Assembly: GCA_019689635.1 (NCBI GenBank)
Contig: JADGHB010000002.1
Location: forward strand, 1-64,000
Direction: 5' to 3'
DNA length: 64,000 bases
Source of the DNA: Nevskia sp.
Lineage (GTDB): Bacteria; Pseudomonadota; Gammaproteobacteria; Nevskiales; Nevskiaceae
The translations under genes and the position numbers were made by a program. Within the stretch, counting starts at the first letter, position 1, and each line of letters starts with the position of its first letter. Below are positions 4,183 to 63,501 of this stretch, piece after piece. The notes beneath the pieces were generated by a model that was given only the letters and a program-made list of their open reading frames with translations, was not told the origin of the DNA and did no database searches.

Positions 4183-4701
4183 TCAATGCGCCTCGCGGCG
4201 GGCCAGGATCGGCAGCGCCAAGGCAAACACGACCAGCCCCGCAAAGGCGATCAGCGTCCACGCCGGCAGCGTCAGGCCCAGCCATTGCGCGTCGATCTTG
4301 GCGCAGTCGCCATCGCCCTTGAAGATCAGTTCGGCGATGCGCCGGGACGCCTCGCCCGCGGGAAACATGTGCCACAGATACGCCGGCGTGGGGCCGCAGG
4401 CCGGAGCCTGGCCGGGCGGCAGCGACTGCAGCCACACCTGACGCGCGGCGACGGCTCCGCCCACCGCCGCCGTCAGCGCCGCGAGCAGGCCGTACAGCCA
4501 ACGCCCGAAGCGCAAGGGCGCGTGCAGCGCGGCGAGCAGAAACAAGATTCCGGTGGCGGTCATGGCCGCGCGCTGGCCGATGCACATCGCGCAGGGTTGG
4601 TAGCCGCGGACCATTTGCAGATAGACCACGGCGAAAATCATGGCGCCGGCGCACACCGCAACGCCGAGCGCGGCCAGAGTGCGGAAGCTGTAAGAAGTCA
4701 T
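4183..4701 (-). CDS. dsbB: Disulfide bond formation protein DsbB
   Basis: 172 aa, TM-rich, [12 protein letters not shown] CxxC motif, second Cys pair region. Confidence 0.9.
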
Positions 4702-4836
4702 GCCGGGATCCGTGGGCAGCGCCGGTCGAGGCGGCGCAAAAAGGCGTGCGGCAGATTAGCGGTTGGGCGATCCCGCCGCAACGCGGGCGGCGGGATTACA
4801 CTGGAGCCTCGCTCCATCCGGCGAAAAAACTCCCGC

Positions 4837-5811
4837 ATGTCCGTCCACATTCGCATCGAACGCCACGGCGGGCCCGAAGTGATGCAGCTCGCCGAGCTTT
4901 CCGTCCCCGCGCCCGGCCCCGGCGAAATCCGCCTGCGCCACGAGGCGATCGGGCTCAACTTCATCGACACCTATCATCGCAGCGGGCTATACAAGATTCC
5001 CTTGCCGAGCGGCCTGGGCAGCGAGGCGGCAGGCGTCGTCACCGCCGTGGGGCCCGGCGTGAAAGAATTCCGCGTCGGCGAGCGCGTGGCCTACGCGGGC
5101 GGCGCGCCGGGCAGCTATTGCGAGGAGCGCGTGATCCCCGCGGCGCTCGCGGTCAAGCTGCCGCCCGGGATTTCGTCCGAGACCGCCGCCGCCCTGCTGC
5201 TCAAGGGCATGACCGCCTATTACTTGTTGCACCTGACCTACCCGGTGCGCGCCGACACGACGCTGCTGGTACACGCCGCGGCCGGAGGCGTGGGCAGCGT
5301 GCTGGTACCCTGGGCGCGCCACCTCGGCGCCCGCGTCATCGGCACCGCCGGCGGCGCGGAGAAATGCGCGCTCGCGCGCCACTACGGCTGCCACGACGTG
5401 ATCGATTACCGCGCCCAGGATTTCGTGGCGGAAACACGGCGGCTCACGGACGGCGCGGGCGTGGACGTGGTGTACGACTCCGTGGGCCGCGACACGTTCC
5501 TGGGCTCGCTCGACTGCCTCAAGCGGCGCGGCACGATGGTCTCCTTCGGCAACGCCTCGGGCAAAGTGCCGGCCTTCGAGCCGATCCTGCTCACCGAAAA
5601 AGGCTCGCTGTTTTTCACCCGTCCCAAGCTCGGCGACTACACGGCCACGCGGCCGGAGCTGGAAGCGGCGGCGCAGGCCGTGTTCGACGCCGTGGCGCGC
5701 GGCGTGATCCGCGTCGACCTCCGCCACCGTTATCCGCTGCGCGACGCCGCGCGCGCCCACGCGGACCTGGAGGCGCGGCGCACGCAGGGTCTGTGCGTCT
5801 TGCGGCCTTGA
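4837..5811 (+). CDS. qor: Zinc-independent quinone oxidoreductase (MDR family)
   Basis: MSVHIRIERHGGPEVMQLAE...GLNFIDTYHRSGLY...HAAAGGVGSVLVPWARHLGARVIGT. Confidence 0.9.
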   Translation: MSVHIRIERHGGPEVMQLAELSVPAPGPGEIRLRHEAIGLNFIDTYHRSGLYKIPLPSGLGSEAAGVVTAVGPGVKEFRVGERVAYAGGAPGSYCEERVIPAALAVKLPPGISSETAAALLLKGMTAYYLLHLTYPVRADTTLLVHAAAGGVGSVLVPWARHLGARVIGTAGGAEKCALARHYGCHDVIDYRAQDFVAETRRLTDGAGVDVVYDSVGRDTFLGSLDCLKRRGTMVSFGNASGKVPAFEPILLTEKGSLFFTRPKLGDYTATRPELEAAAQAVFDAVARGVIRVDLRHRYPLRDAARAHADLEARRTQGLCVLRP

Positions 5812-5824
5812 GGCCGTCTGCGCT

Positions 5825-7142
5825 TCAAGCCGCCTCGTAGAGCTGGTAGCTGTGATGCGCCTTGGGCTCCCAGCGCAGGATGCCCTGCTCGATTTCCGGC
5901 GCCTGGATCAGATGGCTCGCGGGGCCGGTGGCGTTGTCCACGAAGGCGGATTCCAGCACGCGGATCAGGCCGCGGATGTTGCCGTGCCAGCGGCAGTCGC
6001 GCAGCGTCTTCCAGGCTTCCGTGGACAGCCCGGTCGGCGCCACCCAGTCGGTGCAGCGGGAAGCGAGCTTGGCCAGCGTCGCGGCGGTGACCGCGATCAT
6101 GTCCTCTTCGCGCCGCGACAGCTCGGGGACCTGCAGCACCGCCGCACCCATGCGCGTGAACTCGTCGATGTTGACGATGTTCTGTAAATGCGTCCAGCTG
6201 CGGTTGCTGGCGTAGAGCAGCGCGCATTCGAGCTGACGCTTGGCGGATGCGCCGAAGGGCATGTACTGACCGCTGTCCAGCGCTTCCATCAGCACCTCCA
6301 TCACCGCCCCGGAGATCTGGTGGCTTTCGTCGAGGAAGCACACGCCGTCGCGCGCCGTGGTGAAGGCACCGTTGCGCGCCGCCGCGCCGGGAAAGGCGCC
6401 GGTGACGTGACCGCACAGCAGGGATTTCACCGCCGCCTTGTCGCCGGTGTTCTCGGCGGCGAGGTTGACCGCCACGAACTGGCCGCGGCCGCGGACCAGA
6501 TAGTAGTAGTAGGCCAGCGAGGTTTTGCCGCTGCCCGGCCCCCCCTAGCAGGCAGGCGCGGGTGATGCCGTTCCTGGCAAAGCCACGCACGCGCGCCACC
6601 AGCGCCTGCAGCTCGGGACTGAAGACGTAGAAATTGAGGTAGGCGCTGTTCTCGACCTCGGCCGCCACCGGCATGCGGATGACGTTGCCCTCGGTGACTT
6701 TCTTCAGCCGCTCGGGCAGGGCGCGCGCGATGGCGGCGACGTCGGCGCCCACCATCAGGCGCACGCCGTCGAGGCGACCATCGTCGGCACGCCGCTGCAG
6801 CCACTGGCCCAGTGCGACCAGCTGCGCGCCGGTCACGGCGACGATCAACACCGTATCCTGCGCGGCCCGGCGCGCGGCCAGCACCGCGTCGGCCAGCGGA
6901 TCGAGCTGCGCCGGATCGTTGAACAGACTCAACACGAACTCGCTGCCGGCGGCGGCTTCGGCCGCGCCCGGCGTGGCGAGAAACTCGCAGCCGCGGCCCT
7001 CCGGCACCTGCTGGGCGATCGCGTCGAGCGCTTCGCGTTCGCGCAGATAGAGCTGCGGCGCGTAAACGGTGAGAAACGCCGGCTGGCGTTGGCGGGTGAA
7101 CTGCGGCGCTTCGTCCGGCTTGCGGAAACCTGAGCGGAACAT
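5825..7142 (-). pseudogene. Sigma54-activator-like AAA+ ATPase, frameshifted at the Walker A motif
   Basis: N-terminal part in ORF 5730..7142, C-terminal part in ORF 5825..6475; joining frames at the 7-G tract near 6539-6545 restores GGPGSGKTSLAYYYYLVRGRGQF...GHVTGAFPGA...VCFLDE. Confidence 0.8.
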
Positions 7143-52067: not shown

Positions 52068-52813
52068 CGAGAGCTCCTCGGCGTTTGGCTCGCGGATTCG
52101 GATTGCGGCTGGAAACGGAAGTCGGCATACCAGGCGGTGACGGAATCGCCGGTCTGGTCCGTGTCGCTCATCAAGGCGATGCCGGTCAGGCGCGGCACCG
52201 GCTGACCGAACGCGGCGCGATAGTCGGCGGCCACGTCGCGGCTCTCCTCGCGCCACTCGCCTGCGTGGGCACCGCCGCTCTCCAGCACGATCATGCGCAC
52301 GCGGTCGGTGTAGGCGCTGGGCACGACAGTGCCCACCGGCGTGTGGTTGTCCCAGACATAGCACAGCGCCGCCGAGGGCAAGGTCGGGTCGTAGGTCAGG
52401 CGAGCGAGCGAAAGCCCCAGCCGGTCGGCCAGCGAAAAACCGGTCTCGGGCGCGTCGAACGTGAGATACACCCGCGCGGCGAAGTCGTCGCCGGATTTGT
52501 GCCTGAGATCGGCCTTCGTCAAGACATGGCTGACTTTCCACCGCCAAGACAGGCGCCCGGCACCGGGCAGATCGAGTCGGCGCAGCAGGCTGGAAGCGGC
52601 GCCCGCCGATTCCGCGCGGACCACCGCCCGCCCGTCGTCCGTCTCCAGTGCGTAGCGCACCGGCTTGGCCTTGGACAGGCGCTGTTCGCTCCAGCCCTGC
52701 GGCAAACCGTTCTGACCGCCGGTCGCAAAGCCGAGCTCGATGACTTCGGCTCGCGTCGTGCCCACGGCGAACGCAAGGCATGCGAGCAGCGCGTGACGGA
52801 TTCTGGCCTTCAA
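52064..52813 (-). CDS. DUF3047 exported protein
   Basis: TTG start overlapping upstream stop, signal peptide, ...RLSWRWKVSHVLTKADLRHKSGDDFAARVYLTFD... Confidence 0.85.
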   Translation of the reverse strand: MKARIRHALLACLAFAVGTTRAEVIELGFATGGQNGLPQGWSEQRLSKAKPVRYALETDDGRAVVRAESAGAASSLLRRLDLPGAGRLSWRWKVSHVLTKADLRHKSGDDFAARVYLTFDAPETGFSLADRLGLSLARLTYDPTLPSAALCYVWDNHTPVGTVVPSAYTDRVRMIVLESGGAHAGEWREESRDVAADYRAAFGQPVPRLTGIALMSDTDQTGDSVTAWYADFRFQPQSESASQTPRSSR

Positions 52814-55092
52814 GGGGCGCGCTCCCTGCGCGCGGCGGATGGCGCGCCGCGGCGAAAGCGGTGGAAGCGCTCCAGCAACGCCAGGATTTTTTCCGGCCGG
52901 TGCGCCTGGCGCCACAGACCCGCGGCGTACTTGTTCGCTTCGGCCAGCGTCGGATAAACATGGATGGTGCCGAGGAGCTTGTTGAGGCCGATGCGCTGGC
53001 GCATGGCCAGCACGAATTCGGCGATCAGCTCGCCGGCTTGGGCGCCGACGATCGTGGCGCCGAGCACGCGGTCGCGGCCCGGCGCGGTGAGCACTTTGAC
53101 GAACCCCTCGGTCTCGCCCTCGGCGATGGCGCGGTCGAGCTCCGCGAGCTCGTAGCGCACCGCTTCGTAGGGAATGTTTTTCTCCCGGGCCTCGGTCTCG
53201 TTGAGGCCCACGCGCGCCACCTCCGGTTCGGTGAAGGTGGTCCAGGGGATGACCGAGAAATCGGCCTTGAAGCGTCCGCCGCGCAGCGCGAGCCAGGGCC
53301 CGAACAGCGCGTTGATCGCGGCGTACCAGGCGGTGTGCGCGCCGACGTGGGTGAACTGGTACGGACTGGCGACGTCGCCGCAGGCGTAAATGTTCGGAAA
53401 GTTGGTCTGCATGAACGCGTTGACTTCGAGGGTCTTGCCGCAGCGCACGCCCAGTTCCTCCAGGCCATAACCGGTCAGGCGCGCGCGGCGGCCCACCGCG
53501 ACCAGGAGGTGGTCGAAAGCGATGCGCTCCTCGCGCCCGTCGGCCGCGCACACCAGGAATTTCGTGCCGTTTTCGACCCATACGGCTTTGGCCTGCGTTC
53601 CGATGCGCAGGTCCACGCCTTCGGCGCGGAATTTTTCGGCGACGAGCGCGGAGACTTCGGGATCCTCGCGCGGCAGCAGGCGCGGCAGCATCTCCACCTG
53701 GGTCACCCGTGCGCCCAGCCGCGCGAACGCCTGGGTCAGCTCGCAACCGATCGGCCCGCCGCCCAGCACCACCAGACGCCGCGGCAGTTCGCGCAGCGAC
53801 CACAGCGTATCCGAGGTCAGATAACCGGCCTCCTGCAAACCCGGAATCGGCGGCACGAAAGTCTCGGCGCCGGTGGCGATGACCAGGCTGCGCGCGCTGA
53901 GCCGGCGCGTTCCGCCGTCCGGCGTGCGCACCTCGACGGTCCACGGATCGACCAGGCGCGCCCGGCCCATCAGCACCTCCACGCCGAGCGCGGTGTAGCG
54001 CTCCACCGAGTCGTGCGGCGCCACGGCCCGCACCACGCCGGCCACGCGCTCCATCACTCGCGCGAAATCCGGCCGACCCTGCACGTCGACAAAACCGTAC
54101 TCGGCGGCGCGCCGCAACTGGCTGGCGTAGCGCGCGGAGCGGATCAGCGCCTTGGACGGCACGCAGCCGGTGTTGAGGCAGTCACCGCCCATGCGCTGGC
54201 CTTCGATCAGCGTGACCTTGGCCTTCAGCGCGGCGGCGATATAACTGGCCACCAGGCCGGCGGCGCCCGCGCCGATCACGATCAGGTTGCGGTCGAAGGC
54301 GCGCGGCCGCACGTAAGGGCGATACACGCGCCGCGCCTGCAGCATGTCCAGCGACTTGCGCGCGCCCAGCGGAAACACGCCGAGCAGCGCCAGGGAAGCG
54401 AGCAGCGCGGGCGAAAGGATGCCGTGCAAGGAATGCAGCCGCGCCAACTGCGTGCCGGCATTCACGTACAGCAGCGTGGCCGGCAGCATGCCGAGCTGGC
54501 TGACCCAGGCGTAGGTGCGCAACCGCAGCGGCGTCAAGCCGAACAGCAGATTGACCACGAAAAAGGGAAACACCGGGATCAGCCGCAGGCTGAACAAGTA
54601 AAACGCGCCGTCGCGCGCCACGCCCGTGTCGATGGCGCGCAGCGCCTGGCCATAACGGGCTTCGAGCCAGCCGCGCAGGACGAAGCGCGAAGCCAGAAAC
54701 GCCAGGCAGGCGCCGGCGGTGGACGCGAACGACACGAGCAGCGTGCCCCAGACCAGGCCGAAGAGCGCGCCGCCGGCCAGGGTCATCACCAAGGCGCCGG
54801 GCAGGGACAAGCCGGCGACGACGACGTAGGCCGAAAAATACGCGAGCGCGAACGCCCAGGGATGCGCAGCCCGCAACGCGGCCAGCGCCTGGCGCTGCGC
54901 TTGAAGCTCATCGAGCGAAAGAAACCGGCCGAGATGGAAATAAACGAACGCCGCCGCCAAGGCAGCGGCGATCGCCAGCACCGCCAGTGCGCGGCGCGCA
55001 TTCTGGCGTGCGGCACGGCGCTCTACGTCAGACGGCGGACGCGCGGGGCTTGCGGACGACACGGATGCCATTGGGGGATCGGTCGGATTCAT
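52810..55092 (-). CDS. Fusion of TVP38/TMEM64 membrane domain with mercuric-reductase-like FAD/NAD(P) disulfide oxidoreductase
   Basis: N-terminal TM domain (SAYVVVAGLSLPGALVMTLAGGALFG..., RLIPVFPFFVVNLLFGLT), then VIGAGAAGLVASYIAAAL, GGDCLNTGCVPSKALIR. Confidence 0.92.
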   Translation of the reverse strand: MNPTDPPMASVSSASPARPPSDVERRAARQNARRALAVLAIAAALAAAFVYFHLGRFLSLDELQAQRQALAALRAAHPWAFALAYFSAYVVVAGLSLPGALVMTLAGGALFGLVWGTLLVSFASTAGACLAFLASRFVLRGWLEARYGQALRAIDTGVARDGAFYLFSLRLIPVFPFFVVNLLFGLTPLRLRTYAWVSQLGMLPATLLYVNAGTQLARLHSLHGILSPALLASLALLGVFPLGARKSLDMLQARRVYRPYVRPRAFDRNLIVIGAGAAGLVASYIAAALKAKVTLIEGQRMGGDCLNTGCVPSKALIRSARYASQLRRAAEYGFVDVQGRPDFARVMERVAGVVRAVAPHDSVERYTALGVEVLMGRARLVDPWTVEVRTPDGGTRRLSARSLVIATGAETFVPPIPGLQEAGYLTSDTLWSLRELPRRLVVLGGGPIGCELTQAFARLGARVTQVEMLPRLLPREDPEVSALVAEKFRAEGVDLRIGTQAKAVWVENGTKFLVCAADGREERIAFDHLLVAVGRRARLTGYGLEELGVRCGKTLEVNAFMQTNFPNIYACGDVASPYQFTHVGAHTAWYAAINALFGPWLALRGGRFKADFSVIPWTTFTEPEVARVGLNETEAREKNIPYEAVRYELAELDRAIAEGETEGFVKVLTAPGRDRVLGATIVGAQAGELIAEFVLAMRQRIGLNKLLGTIHVYPTLAEANKYAAGLWRQAHRPEKILALLERFHRFRRGAPSAARRERAP

Positions 55093-55278
55093 CGTGCTAG
55101 GGTAAGCGCTCGGGGAGCTTCCCAAGAAGGGCCGCGCGTCCGGGCGTTATGTCCGTGAGTTCGCGGCGCGGTGGCTGCCTCGCGCGGCTGCGGCCGACGG
55201 AAACGGAGCCGAAACTCGGCCTGAACCCATTTCGCCCATGACATCGCCCGCCAGGCGGAAATGCCGCCCATGCGCGAA

Positions 55279-55343: not shown

Positions 55344-55754
55344 ATGGACAAAGCACCGAAGTCGGCTCCCGCATCGGCCGGCGAAGACCGAAAGCTTTAC
55401 GAGAGCATCGGGGGCGCCACCGGCGTGAACGCTCTGGTGGAGCGTTTTTATGCGAACGTGCTCAACGATCCGCAGCTTGCCCCGTTTTTCGAGCACGCGC
55501 GCATGGACCGGCTGCGCCGCATGCAAAGGGAGTTCTTCGCCGCTGCCCTGGGCGGTCCGGTGGACTACAGCGGCGATCACATCGCCCATGCGCACCACGG
55601 CCGGGGCATCGGTCGCGCCGAATTCCAGCGCTTCGTGCAGCACCTGTTCGATACGCTGGCCGAGTTCCGCCTCACCGAAAACGAGCGTTACGCGATCATC
55701 GAACGCATCAATCGCTACGTGAACGAAGTCACCGGGGCCCCCGCCGGTACCTGA
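55344..55754 (+). CDS. Group 1 truncated haemoglobin
   Basis: LYESIGGATGVNALVERFYANVLNDPQLAPFFEHARMDRLRRMQREFFAAALGGP...HAHHGRGIGRAEFQRF. Confidence 0.93.
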   Translation: MDKAPKSAPASAGEDRKLYESIGGATGVNALVERFYANVLNDPQLAPFFEHARMDRLRRMQREFFAAALGGPVDYSGDHIAHAHHGRGIGRAEFQRFVQHLFDTLAEFRLTENERYAIIERINRYVNEVTGAPAGT

Positions 55755-55892: not shown

Positions 55893-55922
55893 TTGCCGGA
55901 CCCCGCGCACGCTCGCTATAGT
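55893..55922 (+). promoter_or_regulatory. Putative sigma70 promoter of Ehr-like operon
   Basis: TTGCCG - 18 nt - TATAGT, about 185 nt upstream of first structural gene. Confidence 0.55.
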
Positions 55923-56105
55923 GCGAACAGGAGATGGCATTCCTCCTCTAACCGCCTTAACCGGCTAATGATGCCTACCAATTTCCGATTCCAAGGACAA
56001 CAAAGGAATTGGTGGCAACGATGCGAGCCGGCGATCCGCTGACCCGAAACACACCGACTGCGCGCGCGATGTCGCGTCGCGCCCCCGGCCTGCGAGGGCG
56101 CGACC

Positions 56106-57047
56106 GTGCGTGACGTGGGGCTACAGATCGCACAGGTGGCGACCGTGCTGTTCCTCGCGCCGCTGTTGCAGGGCGTGATCGTGCAATGGCAGGAGCGCGT
56201 GCAGCGCGCGCAGGGTCCCGGCATTTTCCAGCCCTACCGCGACCTGTGGAAGCTGTTCCACAAACAGCTCGTGGTGCCGGAGACGGCGAGTTTCGTCTAT
56301 TGGATCGCCCCGATCGTCGCCTTCACTTGCGTGTTGACCGTGCCGATCCTGATCCCGGTGTTGACCAACTACCCGCTGCCGCAGTCGGACATGGGCGACA
56401 TCCTGGGCGGCGGCCTGATCCTGACCCTGGGCTCGTTCATGGTCACGCTCGCCGGGCTCGACTCCGGCAGCGCCTACGGCGGCATCGGCAGCTCGCGTGC
56501 GGTGCTGCTGGCAATCCTCGCCGAGCCAACGCTGATCCTGGTGTTCGTCGGCATCACGCTGCTGGCCAAGGCCATGCTGCCTTTCGTCGTGAACCACCTG
56601 CTGGTCGCGGACCCCGCGCTGTACTGGAGCCCGGCGCACCTGTTTCTCGTGGCGGCCTTCTTCATCCTGCTGCTGGTCGAGACGGACCGCCTGCCGATCC
56701 ACTCCAGCACGCATCTGGAGGTGTACATGATCGAGGAGGCGCGGATTCTGGAATATTCCGGCCCGCTGCTGGCGTTGCTCAAGTGGGCAGGGATGATGAA
56801 GCAGTTCATCCTCTACACCATCTTCTGCAACGTGCTGCTGCTCCCCTGGGGCCTGTCGGTGCAGGGTACGGCGCTGGGCGCGCTCGCCGCGGCGGTCGCG
56901 TTGTTCGCCAAGTTCCTGCTCGTCGCGGCGGCGGTGGTGGTCGTGGAAACCATGCAGTCGCGCCTACGCTACTACCGCTACCAGGAACCGTTGGCCGCCT
57001 CTTTTCTGCTGGCGGTGCTGGCCATCGTCGCCGACCAACTGAGATAG
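56106..57047 (+). CDS. NuoH/HyfC-like membrane subunit
   Basis: ERVQRAQGPGIFQPYRDLWKLFHKQ, HLEVYMIEEARILEYSGPLLALLKW; GTG start. Confidence 0.92.
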   Translation: MRDVGLQIAQVATVLFLAPLLQGVIVQWQERVQRAQGPGIFQPYRDLWKLFHKQLVVPETASFVYWIAPIVAFTCVLTVPILIPVLTNYPLPQSDMGDILGGGLILTLGSFMVTLAGLDSGSAYGGIGSSRAVLLAILAEPTLILVFVGITLLAKAMLPFVVNHLLVADPALYWSPAHLFLVAAFFILLLVETDRLPIHSSTHLEVYMIEEARILEYSGPLLALLKWAGMMKQFILYTIFCNVLLLPWGLSVQGTALGALAAAVALFAKFLLVAAAVVVVETMQSRLRYYRYQEPLAASFLLAVLAIVADQLR

Positions 57048-57052
57048 CGAGG

Positions 57053-57733
57053 ATGATTGCCACGCAATTCCCGCCGCTGGCCGCATCGCTGTTCAGTCTG
57101 ATGGCGATCGGCAGCCTGTTGCTCGCCTTCGTCATGCTCGGCTCGCGCTGGCTCAAGGACTACTTGCTCGCCTTCGCCGCGCAATCCTGGCTGATTGCGC
57201 TGCTGTCGGCCGCGGTCGGCTACTACGGCAACTTCCCGGAGCTGTACTTCATCGCGGCGCTGACCGCGCTGTTCCGCGGCGTGGTACTGCCCTGGCTGAT
57301 CCTGCGCATCATCGCGCGCCTTAAGGTGGACCGCGAACTGCACGAACGCCTGAGCCCGAGTTCGTCGCTGGTCATCGGCGCGGCGCTGGTGCTGTTCGCC
57401 TTCGTCGTCTCCAGCCACCTCGGACGCACTCTGCATCTGGAAGGCAGCGTGGCGGTGCTGGCGCTGACCGTGATGCTGTCGATGAAGCTGATCGGCTTCC
57501 TCATGCTCGCGGTGCGCGGCGAAGCGCTCAGCCAGATTCTCGGCATCCTGGTGCTGGAAAACGGCATCTTCCTCGGCAGCCAGATCCTGGTGCCGGGCAT
57601 GCCACTGTTGCTCGAGCTGGTGATCCTGTTCGATCTGCTGGTGATCGTGGCCTGCTTCGGCGTGCTGGTGCGCTATCTCGTGACCCACGCCGGCGTCACC
57701 CACGCACGCGCGCTGCGGAGACTTGTGGGATGA
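57053..57733 (+). CDS. HyfE-like (NuoK-type) membrane subunit
   Basis: 227 aa hydrophobic; ILGILVLENGIFLGSQILVPGMPLLLELVILFDLLV. Confidence 0.88.
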   Translation: MIATQFPPLAASLFSLMAIGSLLLAFVMLGSRWLKDYLLAFAAQSWLIALLSAAVGYYGNFPELYFIAALTALFRGVVLPWLILRIIARLKVDRELHERLSPSSSLVIGAALVLFAFVVSSHLGRTLHLEGSVAVLALTVMLSMKLIGFLMLAVRGEALSQILGILVLENGIFLGSQILVPGMPLLLELVILFDLLVIVACFGVLVRYLVTHAGVTHARALRRLVG

Positions 57734-59238
57734 GTAGCGAAAGCCTGATCGCCGTGATCCTGCTCGCGCCGCTGGCGGCGGTGCTCTTGTGTCTGCTCGT
57801 GCAGCGCCCGCGGCCGGCGGAGTTCTTCAACCTCGCCGCGGCAGTCGTGGTGTTCCTCGCGGTGCTCGCCTTGCTGCCGCACAGTCTCTCCGGCCCGCAA
57901 CGGCTGGCCGACGATTACCTGATCGTGGACGCGCTCAGCACCTGGGGACTGCTGTGTGTAGCCAGCGTCTACCTGCTCTCCTCGATCTATGCGATCGGCT
58001 ACATGCGCCGGCTTTCCGAGGATGCGCGCTTGCACCGCTTCTACGCCCTGTTCGCCGGCTTTGCGCTGACCACGCTGTCCGGCCCGTTGATGAACAACGT
58101 GGGCGTGTACTGGATCGCCATCGAACTGACCACGCTGGTCTCGACCTTCCTGGTGTGCTTCGAGCTGGGCGCGGAAAGCATCGAGGCGGCATGGAAATAC
58201 CTCGTCATCGTCTCCGCCGGCATCAGTCTGGCTCTGCTCGGCACCGTGCTGTACTACTGGGCCGGCAGCTTCGCGCTCGGCCCCAGCTACTCGCTCACTT
58301 GGGCCGCGCTGCGCGAGGTGGCGCCGCGCCTCGATCCCGCCATCGCCACCACCGCGTTTCTGCTGGTGACCATCGGCTTCGGCACCAAGGTCGGCCTGGC
58401 GCCCATGCACACCTGGCTGCCGGACGCGCACAGCGAAGGCCCGGCACCGGTGTCGGCCATGCTCTCCGGCGCGCTGCTCAACACCGCGATGATCGGCATC
58501 GCACGCTTCCTCCAGGTCAGCGATGCCGCCGGCAGCGGCGCGCTGCCGCGGGCGGCGGTGGTGGCGCTGGGCGCCTTCTCGCTGTTCGTGGCGGCGCTGT
58601 TCATCGTGCGCCAGACCGGCATCAAGCGATTGATGGCCTATTCCAGCGTGGAGCACATGGGGGTGCTGGCGCTAGGGTTCGGATTCGGCGGACCGTTAGG
58701 GATCGCGGGCGCGCTCTACCACATGCTCAACCACTCGCTGAACAAGTCGCTGATGTTCTTCGGCGCCGGCAATGCCATGCGCGCCTACGGCAGCAAGCGC
58801 ATCGGCGCGATCCGCGGCCTGCCGACGCGCATGCCGGTGTCGGGCTGGCTGTGGCTGGCCGGCGCGGTGGCGATCACCGGCGCCCCGCCCTTCGGCCTGT
58901 TCCGCAGCGAACTCACCGTGCTGCGCGCGGGCTTGCGCAGCGATCACGCCTGGGCGGTATACCTCATGTTGGTCTTGCTGATCGTGATCTTCGTCGGTTT
59001 CCTCGCCCACTTCCGCGCCATGTACTTCGAGCGCGCGCCCGCCGCGGCAGAAGAACTCCAGTCCGAGGAGGACATCGAGCGCGCACAACCGCTGCGCGAT
59101 TTTCCCGACGCCTGGTGCGTGGTGCCGATGGCGCTGGCGCTGATTCCGCTGCTGGCGCTAGGCCTGTGGTGGCCGGACTTCTTCGCGCGCTGCTTCGCCG
59201 CGGTAGCGGCGAACCTGTCGGTCGGTGGGCGGTCCTGA
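57730..59238 (+). CDS. HyfF/NuoN-type antiporter-like subunit
   Basis: 502 aa; FGTKVGLAPMHTWLPDAHSEGPAPVSAMLSGALLNTAM. Confidence 0.93.
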   Translation: MSSESLIAVILLAPLAAVLLCLLVQRPRPAEFFNLAAAVVVFLAVLALLPHSLSGPQRLADDYLIVDALSTWGLLCVASVYLLSSIYAIGYMRRLSEDARLHRFYALFAGFALTTLSGPLMNNVGVYWIAIELTTLVSTFLVCFELGAESIEAAWKYLVIVSAGISLALLGTVLYYWAGSFALGPSYSLTWAALREVAPRLDPAIATTAFLLVTIGFGTKVGLAPMHTWLPDAHSEGPAPVSAMLSGALLNTAMIGIARFLQVSDAAGSGALPRAAVVALGAFSLFVAALFIVRQTGIKRLMAYSSVEHMGVLALGFGFGGPLGIAGALYHMLNHSLNKSLMFFGAGNAMRAYGSKRIGAIRGLPTRMPVSGWLWLAGAVAITGAPPFGLFRSELTVLRAGLRSDHAWAVYLMLVLLIVIFVGFLAHFRAMYFERAPAAAEELQSEEDIERAQPLRDFPDAWCVVPMALALIPLLALGLWWPDFFARCFAAVAANLSVGGRS

Positions 59239-60719
59239 TGAACGCGCCGCTTCTACAAGACCTCGCACCGTCGCAACTGCCGGAACGCGCACGTGCCCTG
59301 CTGGAATCCGGCGGTCGCCTGCAGATGGCCTACGCCTGGTTCCCGGACGGTGCCATCGAACTGCGCTACCTCGCGGCGGCGAGGCCGAAGGTCTTCGAGA
59401 TCTGGCGCGTGCGGCCGGAAAACGGAACCGCCCCGAGCCTCGCCGCCGTCGCGCCGCTGTTGTCCTGGTACGAGCGCGAGATCGCCGACCTGTGCGGCGT
59501 GCGCTTCGAGGGCCGTCCGGAACCCGACCCGCTGGTGCTGCTGCCCGGCGCCCGCGCCTCCGCGCCACCGCTCACGCCGGGCGCGGACCTCCGTATCGAC
59601 TACACGCCGCAGTTTGCGCGGCTGCCGGAGATCGCCGGCCCCGACCGCGCCGATGTGCAGGTGCTGCCCTTCGGGCCGGTGCGCGGCGACGTGTTGGAGT
59701 CGGCGCAGTTCTTGTTCTTGTACATCGGCGAGGCGATCCTGCACTACCTCCCGAAGCTGTTCTTCAAGCATCGCGGCATGGAGAAGCGCTTCGAAGGCTT
59801 GAACGCGCCGTTCGCGCCGGTGCTGGCCGAACGCGTGTCGGGCGTGGACAGCGTGGCGCACGCGCTGGCCTGCTGCCAGGCGCTGGAAGCGGCCGCCGGC
59901 TGCGCGGTGCCGCCGCGTGCCCACTGGCTGCGCGTGCTGCTCGCCGAGCTCGAACGCCTCTACAACCACCTCCACTATCTGGGCCACCTGTGCCACACCA
60001 CCACGCTCAAGGTGGGCGAAGCACAGGGGAAATATCTGGAGGAGCTTGCCAAGCAGATCAACGGCCGTCTCGCTGGCAGCCGTTTTCTGCGTGGCCTCGT
60101 TATTCCCGGTGGCCTGCACCGCGAGCCGCGGCTCGACGGCCTGCGCGAATCGCTCGCCCGTCTGCAGGAGCAGTTCGCGCCCTATGCGGAAATGCTGGAA
60201 ACCAGCACCACCCATCTCGACCGCCTGATCACCACCGGCGTGCTCCCGCGCCGCACCGCCTTCGACCAGGGAGCGAGCGGGCCAATCGAGCGCGCTTCGG
60301 GACTCGACCGCGACCTGCGCCGCGATCACCCGTATGCCGCCTATGACGAGCTGAAATTTCCCGTGGCGCTGCGCACGGCCGGCGACGCCCACGCGCGCCA
60401 GCAGGTGCGGCTCGCCGAAATCGAGTCGAGCTTGGCCTTGATCCGCGCGGTGCTCGACGAACTGCCGGAGGGTCCTGTGCACGCCGAGTGCACACCGCCG
60501 CCAGGCAGCGAAGGGCTGGGCTGGGCCGAGTCGCCGCGCGGTTCGCTGTACTACGCCGTCCACGTAGGCAGCGACGGCCGCATCGCGCGCATGAAGATCA
60601 AGTCGCCGAGCTTCTCCAACTGGCGTGCGTTTCCCTTCACCGTGCACGACACCAACATGATGGACTACGCCATCGACGAAGCGAGCTTCGGCCTGACCGT
60701 GGCCGGCTGCGATCGTTGA
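59238..60719 (+). CDS. HyfG-like fused NuoC/NuoD (hydrogenase large-subunit-like, NiFe motifs absent)
   Basis: 493 aa; ERVSGVDSVAHALACCQALE in place of the CxxC motif; C-terminus DEASFGLTVAGCDR lacks DPCxxC. Confidence 0.9.
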   Translation: MNAPLLQDLAPSQLPERARALLESGGRLQMAYAWFPDGAIELRYLAAARPKVFEIWRVRPENGTAPSLAAVAPLLSWYEREIADLCGVRFEGRPEPDPLVLLPGARASAPPLTPGADLRIDYTPQFARLPEIAGPDRADVQVLPFGPVRGDVLESAQFLFLYIGEAILHYLPKLFFKHRGMEKRFEGLNAPFAPVLAERVSGVDSVAHALACCQALEAAAGCAVPPRAHWLRVLLAELERLYNHLHYLGHLCHTTTLKVGEAQGKYLEELAKQINGRLAGSRFLRGLVIPGGLHREPRLDGLRESLARLQEQFAPYAEMLETSTTHLDRLITTGVLPRRTAFDQGASGPIERASGLDRDLRRDHPYAAYDELKFPVALRTAGDAHARQQVRLAEIESSLALIRAVLDELPEGPVHAECTPPPGSEGLGWAESPRGSLYYAVHVGSDGRIARMKIKSPSFSNWRAFPFTVHDTNMMDYAIDEASFGLTVAGCDR

Positions 60720-60731
60720 AGGAGAACGAAC

Positions 60732-61544
60732 ATGCCAGTCTGGACACTCTACGGATTGAAGCAAGGCAAGGTGAGCCAGCGCTGGCCGGCGGTCGGCGGC
60801 GACGACGGTCAGTCCGGCGTGCTCGGCTTCCCGCGGTTCGATCCGGCGCAATGTCAAAGCGGTTGCCGCGACTGCGCCGACGCCTGCCTGCCCCAGGCGA
60901 TCACGCTCAAAGAGGGTGGCGGCGTGAACGTGGACTACGGCCGCTGCGTGCAATGCCAGTTGTGCGTCACCGCCTGTCCGAGCGGCGCGTTCACCCTGTC
61001 CAGCGACTGGGCCTTCGGCGTGCGTGCCCGCGAAGACCTGGTGTGGGCACAAGCCGCGAACAGCGCCGCAGGACAGACGCTCAAGCGCGAAATCCGCAAA
61101 GTGTTCGGCCGCAGCCTGCATGTGCGCCACGTGGATGCCGGCTCCTGCAATGGCTGCGAATCGGAATTGCAGGCGTTGAACAATCCCTACTACAACCTGC
61201 ACCGGCTGGGCGTGTTTTTCACCCCCAGTCCGCGCTTCGCCGACCTGCTGCTGGTCACCGGACCGGTGACCTATGCGATGAAAGGACCGCTGCTCGCCGC
61301 CTACGAGGGCATGCCGGAGCCGCGCTTCGTGATGGCGGCCGGCACCTGCGCCTGCTCGGGCGGCACCAACGGCGGCGGCTACGCCTGCGGCCGCGGACTG
61401 GACGGCCTGCTGCCGGTGGACGTATGGCTGCCCGGTTGTCCGCCGAACCCTGCGGCGTTCATCCACGCCCTGCTGATGCTGCTGCAACGCCTGCCTCAGC
61501 GCGTGCGCGGTGGACACTTGATGGAGGATGGCGATGGCCGCTGA
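60732..61544 (+). CDS. HyfI/NuoB-like small subunit fused to N-terminal ferredoxin domain
   Basis: CQSGCRDCADACLP and CVQCQLCVTACPSG ferredoxin motifs, then GSCNGCESE, GTCACSGG, LPGCPPNP. Confidence 0.93.
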   Translation: MPVWTLYGLKQGKVSQRWPAVGGDDGQSGVLGFPRFDPAQCQSGCRDCADACLPQAITLKEGGGVNVDYGRCVQCQLCVTACPSGAFTLSSDWAFGVRAREDLVWAQAANSAAGQTLKREIRKVFGRSLHVRHVDAGSCNGCESELQALNNPYYNLHRLGVFFTPSPRFADLLLVTGPVTYAMKGPLLAAYEGMPEPRFVMAAGTCACSGGTNGGGYACGRGLDGLLPVDVWLPGCPPNPAAFIHALLMLLQRLPQRVRGGHLMEDGDGR

Positions 61545-63501
61545 AGCGCTGGGACTCGCCCTGCTGCTGTGGCTGGCCGGCGGCTTGCTGGCCATTTCCA
61601 GCGCCGGCGGCGCGGCGCGCGCGCCTCTAGTGCTCGGTTGCGCGGCTGGTATCGTCGGCTGCCTCGCAGGACTCGCCGACGAGGGCCTGTCCCTGACGAT
61701 CGGATCCTGGACACTCGCCTATTCCAACAGCGCGCTGTGGTTGTTCGGCTTTGGACTGCTGCCGGCGGGGCTGGCGGCGGCGCTCGGCTCGCCGGTGCGT
61801 GAGGGACATGCGGGCTGGTGCTTCGGCGTGGCTACCTCGCTGCTCGGCGCCGCCGGCGTGTTCGGGGCACAGGACGGCGTCGCGCTGCTGATCGCCTGGG
61901 AGCTGATGAGCCTGGGCGGTGCCGCCCTGCTTCTTTCCGAAAAGCGGGCGTCGGACAGTGGCCGACCGGTGCTGTTCATGCTGGCGCTGCTCGAAGTCGG
62001 CGCGGTGGCCTTGCTGCTCGCAGTGCTCCTGCTCGACCGCGCCGGCGGCGGAATGGGCGCGGCAGCACTGAGCGGCGGCGCGCAGGCGCTGTCCGGCGGC
62101 GCGTGCGCGTTCGTCGGCGCGTTGTTCGTGATCGCTTTCGGTGCCAAGCTCGGCCTGTTGCCGTTCTACGAGTGGTTCCCCTCCGCTTATGCGTCCGGCA
62201 GCGGCGCCACGGGTGCGCTGCTGTCCGGCGTGGTGCTCAACGCCGCCTACTTCGCCCTGACGCGGGCACTGATCGAGTGGCTGCCGGGCAGCGGCGGCTG
62301 GCTGTTCACGCTCGGCGTCGGCGTGGTCATCGTGGGGGTGTGCTCGGCCATCCTCACCGCGCTGTACGCCTTCCAGCAGGACGACTGGCGCGGCCTGCTG
62401 TCCTTTTCATCGGCAGAGAACGCTTCGATCGCGGTCGCCACGCTCGGCGCCGCGCTGCTGTTCCGCGCGGACGGTCACGACGATCTGGCCGCGCTGGCCT
62501 GGTGCGTGGCGCTGCTGCATCTCGCCGGGCACGCGCTTGCCAAAGGCACGCTGTTTCTCGCCGCCGACGGCGTGGCCGCGGCCGGTGGTGACTACCGCAT
62601 CGCCCAGGGCGGCTGGCTGAAACGCGGCGGGCTGCTGTTTGGCGTCGGCGCGCTGTGCGCCGCGATGTCGCTCGCCGCCCTGCCGCCGCAGGCCGGCTTC
62701 ACCAGCGAATGGTTCGTGTTCCAGACGCTGTTCCAGGGTTTTCATCTTGGACACCTGGGCGGGCGCCTGACGTTGGCGCTGGCCGGCGCGGGTCTTGCGC
62801 TCACCGCGGCGATCGCGTTTGCCACTTTCGTCAAGCTGTTCGGTCTGGGACTGCTGGGCGCGCCCGATGCCCCGCGCACGCCGCAGCCGATCGGCGCGGG
62901 GCGTGCGCTGTGCGTGTTCGCCCTCGGTTTCGCAGTGCTGGCGCTGGCGATCGGCCTGCCGTGGTGGCTGCTGGTGCTCGACGCGCAGAGCGCGTCGCTG
63001 TTCGGCGGGCATTACGCTGCGCAACTGCGTTCGGATTGGCTGCTGGTGCCGCTGACCGCCAAGTTCGCCTTCATCTCACCCTCCAAGCTGGTCATCGCCC
63101 TGCCGCTGCTCGCGTTGCTGCCGCTACTGCTGTTGCTCAACGCGCGGCGCCACGCCGTGCGGCGCGTGCCGATCTGGTACGGTGGCCTGCGTCAGAATCC
63201 GCGGCGTTCCTCGACCACGGCGCTGACTTTCTCCAATGCCCTGCGCACCTTCTACAGCTTCATCTACCGCCCCACCGCCGACACCGCACGCGAGCACGGC
63301 GCGCACGTGTATTTCGTGAAGAAACTCCAGTTCGACGCCGAGGTCGCTCCCGTGTTCGGCCCGCTGCTGTTCGCGCCGCTGGAGCGCCTAGTGTGGAAGC
63401 TCGCCGGCCGTCTGCGCGCGCTGCAATCCGGCGACCTGAATTTCTATCTCGCGCTGATCGGCGCGTTGCTGGTGCTGATCCTGGCGGCGACGCTGCGCTG
63501 A
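61534..63501 (+). CDS. HyfB/NuoL-type proton-conducting subunit
   Basis: 655 aa; AFGAKLGLLPFYEWFPSAYASGSGATGALLSGVVLNAAYF, long C-terminal extension; alternative ATG at 61528. Confidence 0.9.
   Translation: MAAEALGLALLLWLAGGLLAISSAGGAARAPLVLGCAAGIVGCLAGLADEGLSLTIGSWTLAYSNSALWLFGFGLLPAGLAAALGSPVREGHAGWCFGVATSLLGAAGVFGAQDGVALLIAWELMSLGGAALLLSEKRASDSGRPVLFMLALLEVGAVALLLAVLLLDRAGGGMGAAALSGGAQALSGGACAFVGALFVIAFGAKLGLLPFYEWFPSAYASGSGATGALLSGVVLNAAYFALTRALIEWLPGSGGWLFTLGVGVVIVGVCSAILTALYAFQQDDWRGLLSFSSAENASIAVATLGAALLFRADGHDDLAALAWCVALLHLAGHALAKGTLFLAADGVAAAGGDYRIAQGGWLKRGGLLFGVGALCAAMSLAALPPQAGFTSEWFVFQTLFQGFHLGHLGGRLTLALAGAGLALTAAIAFATFVKLFGLGLLGAPDAPRTPQPIGAGRALCVFALGFAVLALAIGLPWWLLVLDAQSASLFGGHYAAQLRSDWLLVPLTAKFAFISPSKLVIALPLLALLPLLLLLNARRHAVRRVPIWYGGLRQNPRRSSTTALTFSNALRTFYSFIYRPTADTAREHGAHVYFVKKLQFDAEVAPVFGPLLFAPLERLVWKLAGRLRALQSGDLNFYLALIGALLVLILAATLR

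Follow-up and report, generated by a model that had tools for sequence, protein, structure and literature searches.

What does an operon that resembles a hydrogenase, but that lacks the site at which hydrogen is made, do for the cell, and what would call for its expression? The question is raised by 56106-63501 of the window, the 64,000-nucleotide stretch from Nevskia sp. analysed here (assembly GCA_019689635.1, contig JADGHB010000002.1, positions 1 to 64,000). A preliminary description, made from the sequence alone, had proposed that six tightly packed genes at this locus encode an energy-converting hydrogenase-related (Ehr) complex without a NiFe site, with the HyfB-like gene last rather than first, and that electron input from ferredoxin was plausible. 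What it described at the locus proved to be correct. Its interpretation was supported only in part, and it overlooked a fluoride riboswitch immediately upstream and a second, classic Ehr operon elsewhere in the same genome.

The operon and its large subunit

The six genes are tightly packed or overlapping and agree with family assignments from profile searches:

56106..57047 (+), NuoH/HycD-like membrane subunit with a GTG start (PF00146, E 3.3e-33; aligned with HycD, HyfC and NuoH)
57053..57733 (+), HyfE-like membrane subunit (NF008556, hydrogenase 4 membrane subunit, E 3e-12)
57730..59238 (+), HyfF-like antiporter-type subunit (hydrogenase 4 subunit F, E 4e-109)
59238..60719 (+), large subunit, NuoCD/HycE-like, without NiFe ligands (PF00346, E 5e-41; also PF00374 and PF00329)
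59838..59849 (+), L1 motif of the large subunit, SGVD (residues 201-204) in place of CxxC
60696..60707 (+), L2 motif of the large subunit, TVAG (residues 487-490) in place of CxxC
60732..61544 (+), small subunit, an N-terminal two-cluster ferredoxin domain fused to a NuoB/HycG-like N2-cluster domain (PF01058, E 2e-26, and Fer4 families)
60852..60977 (+), ferredoxin-domain cysteines C41, C45, C48, C52, C72, C75, C78 and C82, for two [4Fe-4S] clusters
61528..63501 (+), HyfB-like antiporter-type subunit, the last gene of the operon (hydrogenase 4 subunit B, E 3.5e-82)

The best solved relative of the large subunit is HycE of E. coli (7z0s_E, E 1.7e-46), and an AlphaFold2 model (pTM 0.90) has a TM-score of 0.90 to HycE. 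When the protein is aligned with E. coli HycE and HyfG, RVCGICGFAH reads RVSGVDSVAH and DPCYSCTDR reads GLTVAGCDR, so that all four ligands of the NiFe centre are gone. The protein ends at ..DR, as NuoD does, with no cleavable extension. At the four ligand positions 87 members of the clade carry S/V, G/D/A, T/S and G, and never cysteine, though one of these sequences was not aligned over the last two positions. The cysteine that follows the L2 motif, Cys491, is conserved in 84 of the 87. Consistent with the loss of the cofactor, a search for HypD (PF01924) gave no hit in the genome, which is 98.5% complete, while four control genomes did give hits. The quinone head-group ligands of NuoD, the His of HPSAHG and the Tyr of EYLG, are not conserved either. 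In the model the loop at residues 146-154 and the C-terminus, which would line the site, are of low confidence and no acceptor pocket could be judged.

The small subunit, for which the best solved relative is HycG (7z0s_G, E 1.8e-35), retains the N2-type cysteines and the two-cluster ferredoxin domain, and its cysteine pattern is conserved. Clade M (see below) and one member of clade W (locus L144) have lost ligands of ferredoxin cluster I, though C52, C72, C75 and C78 are kept even in the clade M sequences. A structure model of this subunit was poor (pLDDT 61) and was not used. The HyfF-like subunit, aligned with NuoL, NuoM, NuoN and HyfF, keeps the Glu on TM5, the Lys on TM7 and the His and Glu residues of the proton path. 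The position of the HyfB-like gene at the end of the operon is a trait of the clade.

In a tree of large subunits the operon falls into a clade, here called W (support 100/100), which joins a sister clade M (W+M, 99/96); W, M and classic Ehr-like operons (C) group apart from HycE/HyfG (98/95) and from complex I, in a tree that included only two NiFe references and no named Ehr reference sequence. A search for E. coli HycE-type relatives in the class listed only places already known as NiFe-less Ehr of types C and M, as far as these were compared, so the tree has just these two NiFe references. The second Ehr operon of the genome, on contig C12, is of type C.

A fluoride riboswitch upstream of nuoH

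Three features of interest lie in the leader of the operon:

55921..55984 (+), fluoride riboswitch aptamer (crcB motif, RF01734)
55972..56017 (+), putative expression platform, a hairpin that takes up the 3' strand of the aptamer (GCCUACCAAUU/GGAAUUGGUGGC)
56021..56113 (+), leader ORF of 30 codons overlapping the nuoH start

In a scan against Rfam the aptamer scores 56.7 bits against a gathering score of 34 (E 4.5e-13), covers the full model (1-64) and lies 121 nt before nuoH on the same strand. There are only two such aptamers in the genome, and the only CrcB of the genome lies behind the second, 3.7 kb away. The hairpin and the aptamer exclude each other, with a local fold of -16.9 kcal/mol, and the hairpin is also seen in the minimum free energy fold of the leader, although the leader as a whole is not more stable than shuffled sequences (z -0.91). 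Analogous hairpins occur in most of the 14 leaders examined, with a terminator-like U-run in one of them (locus L138), though a regulatory function is inferred. The leader ORF might allow translational coupling, but it is not conserved as a peptide and is therefore only suggestive.

To investigate whether the riboswitch belongs to the operon, relatives were collected by the large-subunit protein and not by the RNA. All 70 testable operons of clade W carry a fluoride aptamer upstream of nuoH, at a median of 121 nt, as detected with our own model. The aptamer is found in 6 of 9 operons of clade M and in 0 of 6 of type C. Rfam independently confirmed 8 of the 9 mostly weak-scoring loci that were re-tested, and 8 aptamers in 25 kb of an island on a Burkholderia plasmid, including one before nuoH. 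The searched loci gave 189 aptamer hits in 1.6 Mb, against 65 over the cut-off in 398 Pseudomonadota genomes. The Nevskia genome and four others (G099, G292, G415 and G177) act as paired controls, as each has a W operon with the switch and a C operon without it.

In 49 of 54 loci of at least 15 kb the W operons lie with fluoride genes (CrcB, DUF190, enolase, MutS-like, dynamin), and one lies on a conjugative Burkholderia plasmid. Cultivable, non-pathogenic carriers include Ancylobacter dichloromethanicus, Candidimonas and Acidicapsa. The association is strong from the side of the operon but rare from the side of the riboswitch: when 60 downstream regions from an unbiased census of fluoride riboswitches in the 398 genomes were read, none contained an Ehr or formate hydrogenlyase operon. 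Only a minority of fluoride riboswitches control such operons.

A possible role under fluoride stress

It would seem most likely that the operon encodes a fluoride-induced, NiFe-less energy-converting complex, a distinct fluoride-linked clade of the Ehr-type complexes rather than the generic Ehr type also present in this genome; we put the probability of this reading at roughly 0.55. The sequences themselves establish that the operon lies behind a fluoride riboswitch, that the large subunit lacks every ligand of the NiFe(CN)2CO centre and that in relatives the operon is a regular member of fluoride-resistance islands. The remainder is inference, including fluoride-dependent expression, redox activity, the electron donor and acceptor, and ion pumping. 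In this view fluoride binding to the leader would release expression, electrons would enter through the ferredoxin domain of the small subunit and pass the N2-type cluster to an acceptor at the interface of the small and large subunits, most likely a quinone by analogy with complex I, and the redox step would drive export of H+ (or Na+) through the NuoH, HyfF and HyfB subunits. HF diffuses in and releases H+, while F- leaves by the CrcB channel at the cost of membrane potential, so that HF/F- cycling acts as an uncoupler. An extra pump would offset the resulting loss of proton-motive force and acidification, and would keep the driving force for F- efflux. The quinone acceptor remains only an analogy given that the NuoD ligands are not conserved. 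Similarly, ferredoxin as donor is plausible from the fused domain, but the genome has no pyruvate:ferredoxin oxidoreductase-type gamma domain (PF01558) and no Rnf, so a low-potential ferredoxin pool is not evident, and the loss of cluster I ligands in clade M and in L144 suggests that the donor may not be a classical ferredoxin.

Other explanations were considered. Genes of this kind behind fluoride riboswitches have been named formate hydrogenlyase (PMC2864571, PMC11139923, PMC8752731), which would imply that fluoride shifts cells to fermentation, and the subunits do resemble HycE, HyfF and HyfB. For this clade, however, the reading is refuted by the missing ligands; in addition there is no C-terminal extension, no HypD in the genome, and queries with E. 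coli HycI, HycB, HypB and HypD gave no match in W loci. That the riboswitch is a chance neighbour of a generic Ehr complex is also very unlikely: although the second Ehr operon of the genome has no switch, the split by clade of 70/70 against 0/6 extends across Alpha-, Gamma/Betaproteobacteria and Acidobacteriota, and the island context points the same way.

Of the remaining possibilities, the least unlikely is a fluoride-tolerant bypass, in which the complex oxidises reduced carriers that pile up when fluoride blocks enolase, pyrophosphatase or the ATP synthase, so that its main value would be redox balance. Enolase is often in the same islands, the metabolic effects of fluoride have been reviewed (PMC11139923) and the entry domain is of ferredoxin type, though redox balance alone would not need NuoH and two antiporter-type subunits that keep their proton-path residues. 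Operation in reverse, with proton-motive force driving reduction of ferredoxin for a repair or biosynthetic reaction, is improbable: relatives of complex I can run in reverse and the ferredoxin domain is fused to the small subunit, but fluoride lowers the proton-motive force (PMC11139923) and no ferredoxin-consuming gene was seen among the conserved island genes. Direct export of F- or HF by the antiporter-like arm, driven by electron transfer or by the H+ gradient, is similarly improbable. It would fit the company of fluoride exporters and the relationship of the membrane arm to ion antiporters, but family members of known function move H+ or Na+, no fluoride-specific residues were identified and CrcB is often present as well.

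Ehr complexes have been listed for years with no known role, and the riboswitch gives one clade a physiological context that can be tested with one chemical. If, as we consider about as likely as not, clade W with its sister M is a dedicated fluoride-stress respiratory pump that defends proton-motive force against HF/F- cycling, this would give an Ehr-type complex a physiological role and would mean that the formate hydrogenlyase of the fluoride regulon has been misidentified. That assignment has been cited as evidence for a switch to fermentation (PMC11139923), whereas in the clade examined here the complex has no hydrogen-making site, though current annotation still names its large subunit "nickel-dependent hydrogenase large subunit". 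The idea that HF/F- cycling needs its own pump bears on fluoride tolerance in acid habitats and on the engineering of bacteria that degrade organofluorines.

Comparison with known systems

The Ehr complexes, such as Geobacter GSU0739-45, have a similar group-4-hydrogenase-like subunit set with no NiFe-binding cysteines, with an N2-type cluster in the small subunit and antiporter-like membrane subunits, and no function is assigned to them in the literature (PMC6349859, PMC7894505, PMC10284858). The operon described here differs in forming a separate clade with a fluoride riboswitch, in the fusion of the ferredoxin domain to the small subunit and in having the HyfB-like gene last. With E. coli formate hydrogenlyase (Hyc) and hydrogenase 4 (Hyf) it shares the predicted fold of the large subunit, a HyfE/HyfF/HyfB/HycD-like arm and the N2 cluster of HycG, while the NiFe ligands, HycB, a separate HycF and the maturation genes are missing. 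With respiratory complex I it shares NuoH, NuoCD, NuoB and NuoL/M/N-type subunits and a large subunit that ends as NuoD does, but there is no NuoEFG, NuoA or NuoJ in the operon, the quinone ligands of NuoD are not conserved and a true nuoD is on another contig. Finally, the formate hydrogenlyase of the fluoride (crcB) riboswitch regulon is very probably what earlier surveys saw of such operons, that is a hydrogenase-like operon after a crcB motif (PMC2864571), although this is inferred; the complex examined here lacks the catalytic NiFe site, and so is neither a hydrogenase nor a formate hydrogenlyase.

Absence of the nickel-iron ligands

The six genes named in the preliminary description lie where it placed them, on one strand, separated by gaps of 5 and 12 nt or by short overlaps, and profile searches identify their products as NuoH, HyfE, HyfF, a NuoC/NuoD fusion, a ferredoxin-NuoB fusion and HyfB. 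In an alignment with E. coli HycE and HyfG, the two CxxC motifs that hold nickel and iron are replaced in the large subunit by SGVD and TVAG. The same four positions were examined in 87 relatives, where they are occupied by Ser/Val, Gly/Asp/Ala, Thr/Ser and Gly and never by cysteine. A cysteine is, however, conserved in 84 of the 87 directly after the position of the lost fourth ligand (residue 491) and may be a new functional residue. No gene for HypD was found in the 98.5%-complete genome, although the same search found it in four control genomes. The presence of the ligands elsewhere in the protein had been set beforehand as a finding that would count against a NiFe-less complex, but no CxxC occurs at equivalent places, and the few CxxC pairs elsewhere in single sequences are not conserved. 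The observation of a six-gene operon without a NiFe site is confirmed.

A fluoride riboswitch upstream of the operon

By investigating the neighbours of related operons we found that genes for CrcB (the fluoride channel), DUF190, enolase, MutS-like, dynamin-like and MFS proteins are conserved. This pointed to fluoride, and a search against Rfam gave a complete fluoride riboswitch (56.7 bits, E 4.5e-13), which was the only RNA family hit of the window. Only two such riboswitches are present in the genome, the other preceding the genome's only crcB and a DUF190 gene on the same contig. The truncated globin gene just upstream of the operon's riboswitch shows no apparent link to fluoride. The features concerned are as follows.

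52810-55125, minus strand: fusion of a VTT (SNARE-associated) membrane domain with a pyridine nucleotide-disulphide oxidoreductase
55344-55754, plus strand: truncated globin gene (PF01152)
55921-55984: fluoride riboswitch upstream of nuoH
55972-56017: predicted hairpin that takes up the 3' strand of the aptamer
60708-60710: codon of Cys491 of the large subunit
67230-67745, minus strand (4231-4746 of the extracted locus L006): crcB-DUF190 operon behind the second riboswitch, convergent with the Ehr operon
67230-67568: crcB
67681-67745, minus strand: second fluoride riboswitch
Contig C12 of the same genome, 9070-16235 of the extracted locus L005, minus strand: second Ehr-type operon

To investigate whether the association is general, relatives were gathered through the large-subunit protein in three ways, namely as relatives, from a class sample, and by a scan of a collection of 84,980 species that gave 199 relatives, of which the best 80 were kept. 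The gene order H-E-F-D-B-A, with the ferredoxin-fused small subunit, is kept in essentially all. A covariance model made from 20 aptamers was then run over 100 loci. The aptamer lies upstream of nuoH in 70 of 70 operons of the clade to which this operon belongs (W), in 6 of 9 of the M type and in 0 of 6 of the C type. As some of these leaders had been used to build the model, nine loci, mostly weak-scoring, were re-tested with Rfam; eight pass, while one (L119) does not. In the genomes that carry both W and C operons, which are the present one and those denoted G099, G292, G415 and G177, only W has the switch. The C-type operon of the present genome, on contig C12, also lacks the NiFe ligands, but has its HyfB-like gene first and a small subunit without the ferredoxin domain. 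From the side of the riboswitch the association is rare, since none of 60 other riboswitch regions sampled had such an operon.

Of the loci of 15 kb or more, W operons lie with at least one recognised fluoride gene in 49 of 54. The fullest picture is shown by a conjugative plasmid of Burkholderia cenocepacia (NZ_CP073671.1), where MutS, dynamin, pyrophosphatase, HAD, DUF190, the W operon, CrcB, histidine phosphatase, CLC and MFS genes form a fluoride-resistance island of 25 kb with eight fluoride riboswitches, one of them before nuoH. The large subunit encoded there is mis-annotated as a nickel-dependent hydrogenase. A conserved protein of about 220 residues with no Pfam family is found in fluoride islands at 13 loci (5653-6339 of locus L134 and 12 others) and is a candidate for an unknown fluoride gene.

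Relationship to other complexes

A phylogenetic tree that includes only two NiFe references and no named Ehr sequence separates W (100/100), M (100/99), C (100/100), the NiFe sequences (100/99) and complex I (100/100). W and M are sisters (99/96), and W, M and C together stand apart from HycE and HyfG (98/95), so that there is a fluoride-linked branch of Ehr-like complexes. Within W, sequences from Acidobacteriota and Proteobacteria intermix, which fits horizontal transfer. In several of the loci (L074, L082, L089, L108, L143 and L153) W and M operons sit side by side, in most of them with an aptamer before each operon whose start is on the contig. The small subunit of M keeps the ligands for only one ferredoxin-domain cluster, the set C52/C72/C75/C78.

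Possible mechanism

The riboswitch, the loss of the NiFe ligands, the intact N2-type and ferredoxin cysteines, the proton-path residues in both antiporter-type subunits and the acidic residues kept in NuoH are all seen in the sequence. The predicted hairpin that takes up the 3' strand of the aptamer has similar counterparts in most of the 14 leaders read, one of which ends in a U-run, and this is the layout of a switch that turns expression on with ligand, as described for crcB RNAs (PMC2864571). The response of expression to fluoride is inferred from the sequence, and it is likewise an inference that electrons enter by the ferredoxin domain and leave to an acceptor, perhaps quinone, with H+ or Na+ exported. 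The donor is uncertain, since POR and Rnf are absent from this genome, and so is the acceptor, since the quinone ligands of NuoD are not kept. The reason to want such a complex under fluoride would be one of general physiology: HF enters as a weak acid, F- leaves through CrcB on the membrane potential, and the cycle consumes proton-motive force. The components of this argument are described in PMC11139923, though the argument for uncoupling is ours. While the case for the identity of the complex and for its regulation, as judged from sequence, is strong, the pump remains a hypothesis, albeit the best available and one that is directly testable.

Comparison with known systems

Ehr complexes have been described as lacking the NiFe ligands and as being of unknown function. 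The preliminary interpretation of the operon as Ehr-like was right as far as it went and is supported in part, but it missed the regulation; what distinguishes the present operon from the C-type Ehr operon of the same genome is the fluoride riboswitch, the ferredoxin domain of the small subunit and the position of the HyfB-like gene. No paper in the literature collection searched, which is incomplete, links Ehr complexes with the fluoride riboswitch. Fluoride riboswitches were noted upstream of 'formate hydrogen lyase' genes in 2010 (PMC2864571), and a 2024 review explains this as fermentation (PMC11139923). For the clade studied here the label is wrong.
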